From a virus: a DNA stretch of 22,004 nucleotides. A program made the position numbers and the translations under genes. Within the stretch, counting starts at the first letter, position 1, and every line of letters begins with the position of its first letter. This document shows, one piece after another, positions 4,436-21,908 of the stretch. Under the pieces are notes generated by a model. That model worked only from the letters and a program-made list of their open reading frames with translations. It was not told where the DNA came from and did not search any database. The DNA is taken from positions 1 to 22,004 of IMG/VR virus record IMGVR_UViG_3300032006_000103; one strand, given 5' to 3'.

Positions 4436-4640
4436 ATTTATATAGCCTTTCAGCGGATACCTTACCCGATAAGCACCCCTGCCCCCCCAAATAGGAGTCC
4501 CATGCTTTGCAATTTTTAATTATATATATGGGTTGTCTGGGAGAAATTTTTTTAGTTTTCTGAAATAGCAACTTTCCGCAGGGCCAGTGCTGGCAAGGGA
4601 ACTAGCGTTCAAAGCTATGCTTTCCTGTTTGCATAAGGTG

Positions 4641-4669
4641 TTGACAAAAAAGTGGTTAGTGTCTACAAT
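4641..4669 (+). promoter_or_regulatory. Near-consensus sigma-70 promoter
   Basis: TTGACA (4641-4646) is a perfect -35 element and TACAAT (4664-4669) matches 5 of 6 bases of the -10 consensus, separated by the ideal 17 bases. Transcription would start near 4676 and proceed rightward into the structured region and the dNMP kinase gene. It is the best promoter in the window and should be recognised by host RNA polymerase without a phage factor. Confidence 0.85.
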
Positions 4670-4675
4670 TAGGTG

Positions 4676-4980
4676 TACTAGCCTAGCGGTTGCATTATTG
4701 GGCCGAAGGCGAATGTGTACACCAACCTTATCACACGGGCATATCCGCATGATGTAAAGAGCGGATCGGGTACAAGGGCTTCTGGCGATGAGCCAAGCCA
4801 AACTTGATGCGGAGTAGCAGCGAAAGTGCCGACAATCCCCATCAGGCCTGCAGGGAGATTCCAACAGGGGACGGCTTCCGCTTTAAAAGATAAACCTGCT
4901 ATGTAGTGGCACTTGTTTTCTTCTAGTTTGCATGTCCCCTTCGGGGGTGCTTCGGGCTTGCGCCCTTGCACGAAAGTATT
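4676..4980 (+). ncRNA. Candidate structured non-coding RNA or long leader
   Basis: This stretch starts at the predicted start point of the strong promoter, is GC-richer than its surroundings and has no coding frame with a ribosome binding site on either strand. It can form many local hairpins. ATCCGC (4743-4748) pairs with GCGGAT (4761-4766). GGCT-TC-TGGC pairs with GCCA-AGCC around a GATGA loop (4777-4799), extended by CAAG/CTTG (4773-4806). TCCCC (4836-4840) pairs with GGGGA (4867-4871), CCCC with GGGG around TTC (4936-4946), and GTGC-TTC-GGGC with GCCC-TT-GCAC (4947-4971). I checked for tRNA, tmRNA, RNase P, 6S, group I intron and hammerhead landmarks and found none. The 3' end is unclear because no T-tract follows; it could be a 400-base leader of the dNMP kinase mRNA instead. 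Confidence 0.5.
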
Positions 4981-5082
4981 CGTTTGTTTAAAAAACATTT
5001 TGGTATTGCCCGTAGAAAATTGTTTTTCCTTAAACAACCGGGTTTTGGTTTTGGGTTTCAGTTAACACTATTGGTGGAGCAT

Positions 5083-5658
5083 ATGAGAAAACTAATTGCA
5101 TTGACTGGTACGGCATTTTCTGGGAAGTCAACGATAGCTAAAGAGTTAACTCGTTATGGCTATGTTCGCAAGAAAATGAGTCAGACATTAAAGAACATGT
5201 TATTGCAGATCCCTGGTGTTACAGAGGAGATGACTGAAGGAAGTTTAAAAGAGACTCCTCAAACTATATTAGGTGGAAAGACTCCTCGTTACGCTATGCA
5301 GTCATTGGGTACTGAATGGGGAAGAGATACTATTTTTAGAAGGATATGGTTGGAGTCATGGAAGCGCAGCATTATAGGAGTTCCAAAAGTAGTGGTAGAG
5401 GATTTACGCTTTCCTAATGAAGCTGAACTCATCAGGGAGCTTGGTGGTGAAATTTGGAGGGTCACTAGGGAGGAGGTCATTTCTAGTGATCACAAAAGTG
5501 AAGTTGAAATGAAGCAAATCAGCCCTGACATTGTAATTAAGAATGAGGGTGACTTGGATAGTTTGCATCTTATGTTAACGGGTATTATGTCTGACCAGCA
5601 AGAAGACGAATGGTCTGGGGAGGATTGTCATCCTTCATATTTACACAAAGTTAGCTAG
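5083..5658 (+). CDS. Deoxynucleoside monophosphate kinase
   Basis: This 191-residue protein starts at 5083 (GGTGGAGCAT before ATG); the longer frame from 4966 would read through structured non-coding DNA. The N-terminus MRKLIALTGTAFSGKST carries a P-loop (GTAFSGKST, residues 9-17) for ATP binding. The segment LGGKTPRYAMQSLGTEWGRD and the following Trp-rich helix match phage T4 gp1-type dNMP kinases, which phosphorylate dNMPs to dNDPs for phage DNA synthesis. VVVEDLRFPNEAELIRELGG is the conserved second acidic/strand region, followed by WRVTRE. It is the first coding gene after the strong promoter. Family assignment is sure; which dNMPs are used cannot be read. The C-terminal 25 residues (DQQEDEWSGEDCHPS) are an acidic extension that is probably not catalytic. 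Confidence 0.88.
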   Translation: MRKLIALTGTAFSGKSTIAKELTRYGYVRKKMSQTLKNMLLQIPGVTEEMTEGSLKETPQTILGGKTPRYAMQSLGTEWGRDTIFRRIWLESWKRSIIGVPKVVVEDLRFPNEAELIRELGGEIWRVTREEVISSDHKSEVEMKQISPDIVIKNEGDLDSLHLMLTGIMSDQQEDEWSGEDCHPSYLHKVS

Positions 5659-19422: not shown

Positions 19423-20796
19423 ATGTCATATATAGGTGCAGAGCCAGCAGAAAAATATATCAGCTTGGAGACACAGAATTTTACTGTCTCCGCTACCACT
19501 AGTTATACGCTGGCTAATTCAGTTACTAATGAAAATGAAATTGCGTTATTCATTAATAACGTAAGGCAACAACCGGGTTCTAGTTATGCGTATACTGCAA
19601 GCGGTACTACTCTGACTCTTTCTTCCGCAACTGCTGGCACAGATACAATGTATTGTGTCTACCTTGGAAAAGCAGTAGGCACAATTAATCCCCCGGATGG
19701 TTCGGTGGGCGATTCAACGATTACAGCGATGTCTGCCAGTAAACTTACTGGAACAATAGCTGATGCTAGATTCCCTGCTACTCTCCCTGCTGTATCAGGT
19801 GCAAATCTTACTAATCTTCCTATTACTGATGAAATAACTAAAAGCACTTCAGAGCCAGCAGGTGATACCAATCCTAGCGGTGGGGTAGGTAGTTTATGGT
19901 TACGGACTACTACAGGGGAGATGTATTGTCTTACTGATGCGACTACTGATGCGAATGTTTGGACAAACATTGGAGAAGGCACAGGCAATCAACCTTTTAT
20001 TTATATGACTGCAACGGGTGGAACCATAACTAGCGATGGAAATTTTAAAGTTCATGTTTTCAATTCTTCTGGAACTTTTGAAGTCACTACTCTTGGGGAT
20101 ATTGGAACAGTCGAATATTTAGTAATAGCTGGAGGTGGGGCTGGCGCACACGGAGGTGGTGGTGCTGGAGGGTACAGGACTGCGACAGGCTTTTCTGTCT
20201 CTGCTCAATCTTACTCCATTACAGTAGGTGCTGGCGGTGCAAAAGATACCACGGCTACAATTTATGGTGGGAATGGTAGCGATTCCGTTTTTAGCACTAT
20301 TACCTCAACTGGCGGTGGAGGTGGAGGGTCTTATTATGGAAACGCCACAAATGAAACGGGGCGAGATGGTGGATCAGGCGGTGGCGGTGGCCCATCTGGA
20401 AACAAACCCGGTGGAAGTGGAACAGCAGGTCAAGGCAATGATGGTGGGGCTGGAATGACTGACGGAGTAACTCATTCATCGGGAGGAGGAGGCGGTGGTA
20501 GTAGTTCCGCTGGTATTGCAGTTAGTAGTTCCGCAGGGGGAAATGGTGGAAATGGGACGGAAAGCAGTATAACTGGGAGTGCTGTTACACGGGCTGGTGG
20601 TGGAGGTGGGGCGAAAGACAGTTCTGGCTCACTAGGTTCGGGAGGGACAGGTGGTGCGACTTCCGCTACATATCTGACCAGCGTTGCTGACCCAACTGTC
20701 AATACTGGTTCTGGTTCAGGTGGGTCTTATACAGGGGCTTACAATGCCAATGGTGCTTCTGGTGTTGTAATTATTCGTTATCAATTTCAAGGATAG
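19423..20796 (+). CDS. Glycine-rich tail fibre / adhesin, 457 aa
   Basis: The ribosome binding site is TAGGAGAATTAG. Residues 1-85 (AEKYISLETQNFTVSATTSY, then ENEIALFINNVRQQPGSSYA) form an attachment-type beta domain; 105-133 is a SASKLTG...GANLTNLP linker. Residues about 150-190 (NPSGGVGSLWLRTTTGEMYC, TDATTDANVWTNIGEG) resemble a widespread fibre module; 200-235 contains GGTITSDGNFKVHVFNSSGT. From 236 to the end it is a glycine-rich domain (AGGGAGAHGGGGAGGYRTA) finishing in SGVVIIRYQFQG. Polyglycine-rich sandwich domains act as receptor-binding tips in phages such as S16, so this is probably the host-binding tip. It is a paralogue of the next gene. Confidence 0.82.
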   Translation: MSYIGAEPAEKYISLETQNFTVSATTSYTLANSVTNENEIALFINNVRQQPGSSYAYTASGTTLTLSSATAGTDTMYCVYLGKAVGTINPPDGSVGDSTITAMSASKLTGTIADARFPATLPAVSGANLTNLPITDEITKSTSEPAGDTNPSGGVGSLWLRTTTGEMYCLTDATTDANVWTNIGEGTGNQPFIYMTATGGTITSDGNFKVHVFNSSGTFEVTTLGDIGTVEYLVIAGGGAGAHGGGGAGGYRTATGFSVSAQSYSITVGAGGAKDTTATIYGGNGSDSVFSTITSTGGGGGGSYYGNATNETGRDGGSGGGGGPSGNKPGGSGTAGQGNDGGAGMTDGVTHSSGGGGGGSSSAGIAVSSSAGGNGGNGTESSITGSAVTRAGGGGGAKDSSGSLGSGGTGGATSATYLTSVADPTVNTGSGSGGSYTGAYNANGASGVVIIRYQFQG

Positions 20797-20804
20797 GTGA
20801 ATAA

Positions 20805-21908
20805 ATGGCAACAAGTAAAATAAAATCAGACTCAATAGATACTGTAGCCGCAAGTAAACTGACAGGTTCTTTGCCAGCTATATCAGGTGCATCGCTTACG
20901 AACTTGCCAAGTGAATTTACCAAAAGCGGTTCTAACCCAACTGGTACAACAAATCCTTCTGGTGGTGTAGGTAGTCTTTGGCTTAACACATCAAGTGGTG
21001 AGATGTACTGTTGTACTGATGCCACTAGCAACAATAATGTTTGGACAAACATAGGAGAAGGTACAGGTAATGAACCAGTTTTAGCCCCTACTGGTGGAAC
21101 CATAACTACAGACGGGGATTATAAAGTTCATACATTTACTTCATCAGGAAATTTTATAATTACGCATCTAAGCCAAGTTCTTAACTCTGAAGTAGAGTAT
21201 CTCGTTGTCGCTGGAGGAGGCGGTGGCGGTGGGGGAGGAGGAGGCGGTGGGGGTGCTGGTGGATACCGTACTGCTACTGGTTTGTCTGTATCCGCACAAA
21301 CATACGCAATTACCGTTGGGGCTGGTGGGGCTGGAAATACGAATGGTGGTGGAGGTACACCCGCATCTGGTACTAACGGAAACGATAGCATATTTTCTAC
21401 CATTACTTCTACAGGGGGTGGCGCAGGGGGTGGCGCAGGGGGAGGTGGGGGTGGAGATGCTGGTAAAAATGGTGGTTCAGGTGGTGGTGCTGACGCATTT
21501 TCATCTGGTGGTTCAGGGAATACACCTTCTACAAGTCCATCACAAGGTAATAATGGTGGAGCAGGTGGAGATAGTGGTGGTTCAAATTGGGGTGCTGGCG
21601 GTGGCGGTGGTCATGGTGGAGTCGGGGGGAATCGTTCTGGTTCAACAGGTGGTGACGGAGGTGCTGGTACGGCAAATAGTATTTCTGGTTCAGCAGTTAC
21701 TTATGCCGCTGGCGGTGGGGGTGGCGGTGGTAGCACCGCTGGTCAAGGTGGTTCAAGTGGAATTGGTGGTGATGGTGCAGTTACATATAGTTCAAATACT
21801 GCTGATAATGCTTCCCCTGCAAATAGAGGCGGTGGAGGAGGTGGTGCTGGTCTTACTGGAGGATCAGGAAGTTCAGGCGTAGTAATTATTAGATATAAAT
21901 TTCAATAA
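20805..21908 (+). CDS. Second glycine-rich adhesin, 367 aa, without the N-terminal attachment domain
   Basis: The ribosome binding site is AAGGATAGGTGAATAA, eight bases after the previous stop. The product aligns with the previous gene from its SKLTG linker on: SKLTGSLPAISGASLTNLP, NPSGGVGSLWLNTSSGEMYC, NVWTNIGEGTGNEP, GGTITTDGDYKVHTFTSSGN and EYLVVAGGG, then a run of 14 consecutive glycines at residues 137-150, AGGYRTATGLSVSAQTYAIT and a final SGVVIIRYKFQ. The attachment domain of the paralogue (residues 1-100) is absent, replaced by a short start (MATSKIKSDSIDTVAA). It could be a second, interchangeable receptor-binding tip that binds to the same base, or a product used with the first. Glycine-rich loops between the tips are very different, which suggests selection for receptor change. 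Confidence 0.8.
   Translation: MATSKIKSDSIDTVAASKLTGSLPAISGASLTNLPSEFTKSGSNPTGTTNPSGGVGSLWLNTSSGEMYCCTDATSNNNVWTNIGEGTGNEPVLAPTGGTITTDGDYKVHTFTSSGNFIITHLSQVLNSEVEYLVVAGGGGGGGGGGGGGGAGGYRTATGLSVSAQTYAITVGAGGAGNTNGGGGTPASGTNGNDSIFSTITSTGGGAGGGAGGGGGGDAGKNGGSGGGADAFSSGGSGNTPSTSPSQGNNGGAGGDSGGSNWGAGGGGGHGGVGGNRSGSTGGDGGAGTANSISGSAVTYAAGGGGGGGSTAGQGGSSGIGGDGAVTYSSNTADNASPANRGGGGGGAGLTGGSGSSGVVIIRYKFQ

Follow-up and report, generated by a model that had tools for sequence, protein, structure and literature searches.

An apparently new family of structured non-coding RNA with its own promoter in a group of uncultured bacterial viruses

The spacer between leftward and rightward genes

The window, i.e., the whole 22,004-nt stretch of viral DNA analyzed here, contains a junction from which leftward and rightward genes diverge (Table 1). 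The leftward genes include a polynucleotide kinase gene in this phage and, in the 31.6-kb relative L092/L177, genes for a DnaB-like helicase, a RecE-like nuclease, a single-strand binding protein, a methyltransferase, and an integrase. The rightward genes encode a dNMP kinase, endonuclease VII, and the portal, capsid, and tail proteins; the dNMP kinase gene is the first of this late/structural block. The RNA described here lies at the junction and heads the structural block.

Two observations concern the surroundings of the RNA. The same intergenic region holds a second conserved non-coding block (4469-4590), which has a blastn match in 11 of the 12 full-length relatives, the exception being L102, and which reads on the minus strand (T)AGACAACCCATATATA, ~15-20 nt, and then GGGACTCC..GGGGG; its possible roles are those of a promoter or leader for the leftward genes, an origin, or a recognition site of another kind. 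In L097/L085 and L087, three direct repeats of the GAGTTC(A/G)CA type (operator- or iteron-like) are located upstream of the RNA promoter.

A preliminary description of 4641-4980, made from the sequence alone, reported a near-perfect sigma-70 promoter followed by a GC-rich, hairpin-forming transcript without a coding frame. The promoter indeed scores higher than any other site in the first 12 kb, and the RNA starts, judged by position, approximately where TTGACA-17-TACAAT would initiate transcription. All seven members of the sub-clade of this phage have TTGACA, a 17-nt spacer, and a -10-like hexamer 6-7 nt before the RNA start; the -10 hexamer of L083 (AAAAAT) is poor. A simple scan detected no promoter upstream of the RNA in L101, L102, and L121; by eye, TTGACA-17-TAGGCT is present in L101. 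The G+C content is also elevated as described, at 51% for 4651-4950 versus 36-45% in flanking windows. The statement about coding potential needs to be qualified: frames are not shared by relatives, but minus-strand ORFs of 114 and 119 aa that begin with TTG do overlap the stretch. In relatives, most frames through the RNA are interrupted by stops, and the length differences between copies are not multiples of three. The kinase ORF could be extended upstream to a TTG at 4966; relatives align from the ATG at 5083 or just after it.

The three hairpin loops named in that description are all present: GATGA forms the loop of P4 within the conserved RNA, and TTC and TTGC cap two hairpins just 3' of the RNA, outside its conserved part. 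As an argument for an RNA, the hairpins fail, because hairpin formation alone is at the level of chance and the folding energy does not stand out (z = -0.14 for 4676-5000; mean z of approximately -0.9 over 13 homologues). A folding energy of 4676-5000 no better than that of shuffled sequence is what would be expected if the spacer merely contained chance hairpins and no functional RNA. Because the promoter and the G+C content are no proof of an RNA, and the folding energy is ordinary, the question was settled by means of relatives.

Table 1. Features of the RNA locus (coordinates of the window; RNA elements in RNA letters)
Feature	Position	Strand	Remarks
sigma-70 promoter of the RNA	4641..4669	+	TTGACA 4641-4646, 17 nt, TACAAT 4664-4669; 11/12 consensus matches
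Conserved structured RNA	4677..4916	+	ACUAGCC to GGCACUUGU; covariance model R1, covariation
P1	4681-4683/4708-4710	+	100% paired; two-sided change in 1/3 pairs
P2	4687-4690/4702-4705	+	Enclosed by P1; 98% paired; two-sided changes in 3/4 pairs
P3	4716-4723/4768-4774	+	94% paired; two-sided changes in 5/8 pairs
AUCACA	4730-4735	+	Conserved, in P3 loop
P3-loop insertion	4743-4766	+	Itself a hairpin, AUCCGC...GCGGAU; in this copy only
P4 hairpin	4777..4799	+	GAUGA loop; 96% paired; two-sided changes in 6/8 pairs
P5	4803-4809/4840-4846	+	7 bp; 100% paired (n = 13); two-sided changes in 5/7 pairs
PK1	4824-4830/4908-4914	+	AAGUGCC with GGCACUU; 7 bp; 100% paired (n = 13); two-sided changes in 4/7 pairs
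PK2 (possible pairing)	4837-4838/4867-4868	+	CC of P5 loop with GG of P7 loop
P6	4850-4857/4875-4881	+	Topped by P7; P6 and P7 together 96% paired, two-sided changes in 8/11 pairs
P7	4859-4862/4869-4872	+	Tops P6
Two hairpins after the RNA	4936-4946, 4947-4971	+	Both fold; terminator-like hairpins of relatives sit here
dNMP kinase gene	5083..5658	+	PHROG 139, E 1e-43; homologous start in relatives

Copies in related viruses and covariation

Relatives were first reached via the dNMP kinase and portal proteins, and the spacer 5' of the kinase gene could be aligned wherever a contig covers it. L097, L101, and L102 were added using a pattern from the most conserved loop, and L121, L123, L124, and L126 were reached by portal alignment, i.e., by protein relatedness. 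Altogether, the RNA is present in 16 related viral contigs, with one copy per contig, and in these carriers, the rightward late gene block always begins shortly after it; in the portal clade (at least 65% identical), it is found in every contig that extends far enough upstream. The copies comprise 13 different full-length sequences that are 57-97% identical over the aligned RNA, and two incomplete ones of 143 and 81 nt. The copy in this phage is 240 nt long and those of relatives 210-222 nt; within 4641-4980, the conserved RNA occupies 4677-4916 only. In most copies, the conserved 3' end is GGNACUUGU, and the sequence is variable beyond it. At full length, model R1 scored 197 bits for the copy in this phage and 146-235 bits for those of relatives, with the best match outside the family at 8 bits. 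A covariance model built without L121, L123, L124, and L126 recovered their copies with E values of 5e-50 to 1e-69.

The structure consists of the hairpins P1-P7 and the 7-bp pseudoknot PK1. In the 13-sequence alignment, 96% of the pair cells are standard pairs and 32 of the 51 pairs have two-sided changes; none of 500 shuffles of the alignment reached the paired fraction or the two-sided count. In the hand alignment, in which the letters were checked against the genomes, 98% of 454 cells are standard pairs. Because a hand alignment leans towards its own structure, the count was repeated on a plain MAFFT alignment (n = 9), in which 94.7% of the cells were paired, two-sided changes occurred in 24 of the 51 pairs, and 0/500 shuffles were as high. 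Sliding the partner by 1-3 columns in the MAFFT alignment decreased pairing from 95% to 33-47%, a single column being sufficient to halve it, and RNAalifold returned essentially the same P1-P7 from this alignment without being given a structure. To allow for relatedness, events were also counted on an independent portal-protein tree, giving 67 compensatory changes versus 11 breaks; 500 random pairings of the same columns on this tree gave at most 15 compensatory changes and at least 78 breaks.

We single out PK1 because programs limited to nested folds cannot return it along with P5. On the portal tree, PK1 has six compensatory changes and no breaks; its variants are AAGUCCC/GGGACUU in L083, AAGUACC/GGUACUU in L102, GGAUGCC/GGCAUCC in L121, and GAGUGCC/GGCACUC in L123, L124, and L126. 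Similarly, the loop end of P4 occurs as GGC/GCC, GAG/CUC, GAC/GUC, and CUC/GAG. The pattern sought as the mark of a new RNA family, i.e., covariation in P2-P7 and PK1, is therefore present. A second pseudoknot of 2-3 bp, PK2, is only suggested, as two of its pairs are invariant and the third often breaks, which provides no covariation support. The most conserved loop is that of P5, GCGGAGUAG..GCGA..GACAAUCCC, and the nearly invariant unpaired segments are AUCACA in P3, GCGGAGUAG..GCGA in the P5 loop, and AAAGAYAAACC before PK1.

Covariation, and not folding energy, is the real evidence for an RNA: folding energy alone would have dismissed it, while homologues and covariation reveal it. Together with the model matches to unseen copies and the conserved start and end, covariation refutes, at the level of sequence, the explanation by chance hairpins, which we regard as having practically no probability.

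G-U occurs in 14 pair columns versus three with A-C, and this excess points to the plus strand being the RNA. This observation bears on the alternative that the segment functions at the DNA level or belongs to a replication origin (primer RNA or cruciform) at the divergent junction. Such a function would fit a position where gene direction and GC skew switch, next to the other conserved non-coding block (~4469-4590), and the DnaB-like helicase gene in the relative L092. However, the excess of G-U over A-C columns and the covarying pseudoknot favor a plus-strand RNA; moreover, the RNA is transcribed away from the block at 4469-4590 and, in several relatives, is followed by terminator-like hairpins. 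We consider this alternative improbable.

Altogether, the homologues, the covariation, and the conserved start position strongly support that 4641-4980 specifies a structured non-coding phage RNA driven by its own promoter. Its elaborate knotted shape has been preserved in evolution, so that the RNA is almost certainly of use to the virus.

Downstream hairpins, second promoters, and the kinase gene

Hairpins follow the conserved RNA in most members. In this phage, no T run directly follows those at 4936-4971. In L083, the hairpin is directly followed by TTTTTGTTT, a T run, and in L123 and L124, long T runs start 7 or more bases after the stem of a 7-bp hairpin; a strict terminator scan gave no score for the hairpins of L083, L123, and L124. 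In L083, only ~20 nt separate the end of the terminator-like hairpin and T run from the kinase ATG, too few to accommodate another promoter. Second promoters precede the kinase gene in L101 and L126 (TTGACA-17-TATATT) and in L121 (TTGACA-17-TACGAT). A promoter scan found none in the interval between RNA and kinase gene of this phage, L083, L087, L088, L090, and L092, and in these six members, the late genes may be read through from the promoter of the RNA.

The preliminary description had suggested, among other roles such as a host-targeting decoy, which is conjectural, a leader controlling the dNMP kinase gene. Such a leader would be a riboswitch-like regulatory element specific to this gene. 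Consistent with this idea, the next longer gene after the RNA encodes the kinase in 12 of the 13 full-length neighborhoods compared. However, the distance from the RNA to the gene varies from 91 to 353 nt; a terminator-like hairpin and/or an independent promoter lies between them in several members; tiny hydrophobic ORFs intervene in L085, L087, L088, and L121; and L102 has a different longer ORF first, with the kinase gene following ~0.9 kb after the RNA. Furthermore, the covariance model found no copy at 79 other dNMP-kinase loci. As far as the sequences tell, an RNA next to the kinase gene and on the same transcript is not what L083, L101, L121, L123, L124, L126, and L102 present. The terminator-like hairpins, the second promoters, and the gene order in L102 argue against a kinase leader, which we consider very improbable; for one branch of the clade at least, they make a separate transcription unit likely.

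Several minor features were noticed in the downstream interval. By eye, the first longer ORF of L102 (864 onward) encodes a NifU-like C-terminal (iron-sulphur scaffold) protein. The very small ORFs between RNA and kinase gene encode hydrophobic peptides of ~19-28 aa and are located at ~850-911 in L085, just before the kinase gene in L087 and L088, and at ~1950-2040 in L121; one small hydrophobic ORF overlaps the kinase start. A TTTAAACCRCCCGGTTTTG-TTTTG-like element at 5028-5058 recurs in L085, L101, L123, L124, and L126; its version in this phage also resembles the coding sequence of a tail-region gene of relatives.

Comparison with known RNAs and proposed role

The reported lack of landmarks of known RNAs is borne out at the sensitivity of the tools used: neither Rfam 15 nor ARAGORN gave a match, including to tRNA, tmRNA, RNase P, 6S, group I introns, IMES, Ocean-V, Whalefall, GOLLD, or ROOL. 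The Rfam search that had been proposed (4227 families) returned no gathering match in the window, and Rfam 15 likewise had none for group II introns, pRNA, Whalefall-1, or HEARO. With E values up to 5, there was only a chance mir-70 match on the minus strand and outside the RNA; among six relatives, there were three sub-threshold matches, none of them within the RNA. ARAGORN found no tRNA or tmRNA genes in the window. Strings resembling the hammerhead (GAUGAG/CGAAA) occur in P4 and the P5 loop, without the hammerhead arrangement.

Using blastn with the RNA region and L088 against 50,697 phage genomes, we obtained chance matches only or none. The covariance model detected no copy in portal relatives of <30% identity or in the parts scanned of the pelagiphage HTVC106P and of Venkman, the closest cultured phages found by capsid (35-40% identity). 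No copy was found under strict filters in bacterial genomes of the class (385) and phylum (398) of one Sphingomonas genome, two overlapping sets; because the host is not identified and the filters were strict, this negative result is weak evidence. A loosened pattern gave 105 stretches. The model was run on the 74 listed loci and matched none but known members; nhmmer over all collected loci gave no further member. Pattern matches in bacterial genomes (L108-L113) were judged coincidental by eye and had no model match, and the matches to a second pattern (L104-L107) were by eye not the RNA but chance. A limited literature search found no published description of the RNA. Based on the lack of an Rfam match and of a published description in that search, the family of this ~210-240 nt RNA, which a group of uncultured bacterial viruses carries behind its own promoter, appears new and undescribed so far.

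The put RNA of HK022, which has ~70 nt and two stem-loops, acts in cis on RNA polymerase (PMC9378689). Like put, the RNA described here is a phage RNA element just after a strong promoter (in the sub-clade, 6-7 nt after the -10 hexamer) and before terminator(s) and an operon. Unlike put with its two adjacent stem-loops, it has seven helices and a covarying pseudoknot in 210-240 nt, and a terminator and a new promoter lie between it and the next gene in some members. By analogy, the RNA could be a cis-acting leader of the late operon that, attached to or bound by RNA polymerase, gives or tunes read-through of the downstream hairpin or terminator. Because no second promoter was found in six members, their late genes may need read-through, which keeps a put-like function under consideration. 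This function would also agree with the constant location of the RNA at the start of the rightward structural genes, behind a strong promoter and ahead of a terminator-like hairpin, with the lack of room for a promoter before the kinase ATG in L083, and with the finding that no phage RNA polymerase or antiterminator was recognized among the proteins scanned (22-kb stretch and 31.6-kb relative). However, such an element could not serve the kinase gene in L101, L121, and L126, which has a strong promoter of its own; the RNA is three times larger than put and pseudoknotted; and the shared position could simply reflect conserved gene order overall. We therefore regard a cis-acting leader as a serious but rather unlikely alternative.

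In phage lambda, the PR'-6S leader/tR' unit comprises a constitutive-looking host promoter, a leader of ~200 nt, and a terminator followed by the late genes, and this order is the same here. The lambda leader needs the protein Q; a non-exhaustive search recognized no Q-like gene here, and, to our knowledge, the lambda leader is not a conserved pseudoknotted fold. The pRNA of phi29 attaches to the prohead/portal and is required for packaging. It resembles the RNA described here in being phage-encoded, structured, of similar size, located near head genes, and engaged in loop-loop pairing; in contrast to pRNA, the RNA described here ends without a terminal helix, its 3' end pairing into the P5 loop by PK1 in 100% of the 13 sequences, and has no Rfam match to pRNA. 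GOLLD, ROOL, and other orphan structured RNAs, the functions of which were unknown when they were found, are likewise conserved, ornate, and phage-associated, but the RNA described here is much smaller than GOLLD and ROOL, has another architecture, and has no Rfam match. As a kind of thing, it appears to join the orphan structured RNAs of phages; we claim no new mechanism.

We suggest, with a probability of roughly 60%, that the RNA is best read as a stand-alone structured RNA that is expressed from its own promoter and acts in trans. Judged by its near-consensus sigma-70 promoter, it would be transcribed immediately by the host, whose RNA polymerase with the housekeeping sigma factor would make a transcript starting at or next to ACUAGCC. 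The covariation shows that the 5' part of the RNA forms three hairpin domains (P1/P2, P3, and P4) and that P5, P6/P7, and PK1 make up a 3' core holding the 3' end against the P5 loop. A discrete transcript of ~215-300 nt would be released, at least in those relatives that have a terminator-like hairpin downstream. The RNA would most likely act in trans as a folded scaffold, with the nearly invariant unpaired segments contacting a protein or host machine early in infection. The fixed promoter spacing, the terminator-like hairpins in L083, L123, and L124, and the second promoters in L101, L126, and L121 support a stand-alone unit; on the other hand, the six members without a second promoter fit a cis-acting leader equally well, and the 3' hairpins at 4936-4971 have no adjacent T run. 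More tentatively, the stand-alone RNA might represent a new class of trans-acting phage RNA, either a catalytic RNA or the pseudoknotted scaffold of a ribonucleoprotein, which the host polymerase would make at once on infection and the whole clade would require; we speculate that it could, e.g., redirect a host machine, block a defense system, or function in virion assembly, and such a class would have no known counterpart.

Long non-coding RNAs retained by compact phage genomes have repeatedly proved to be unusual machines or regulators. Because its secondary structure, pseudoknot included, is well supported, its ends are defined, and a covariance model is at hand, the expression, partner, and role of this RNA are directly testable.

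Two further observations concern the genomes that carry the RNA. The integrase gene of the relative L092 (L177 4119-5249) suggests possible integration by at least some members of the clade. Near the right end of the window (20127-21741), two tail-region proteins with PHROG 2295 matches contain long Gly-rich repeats.
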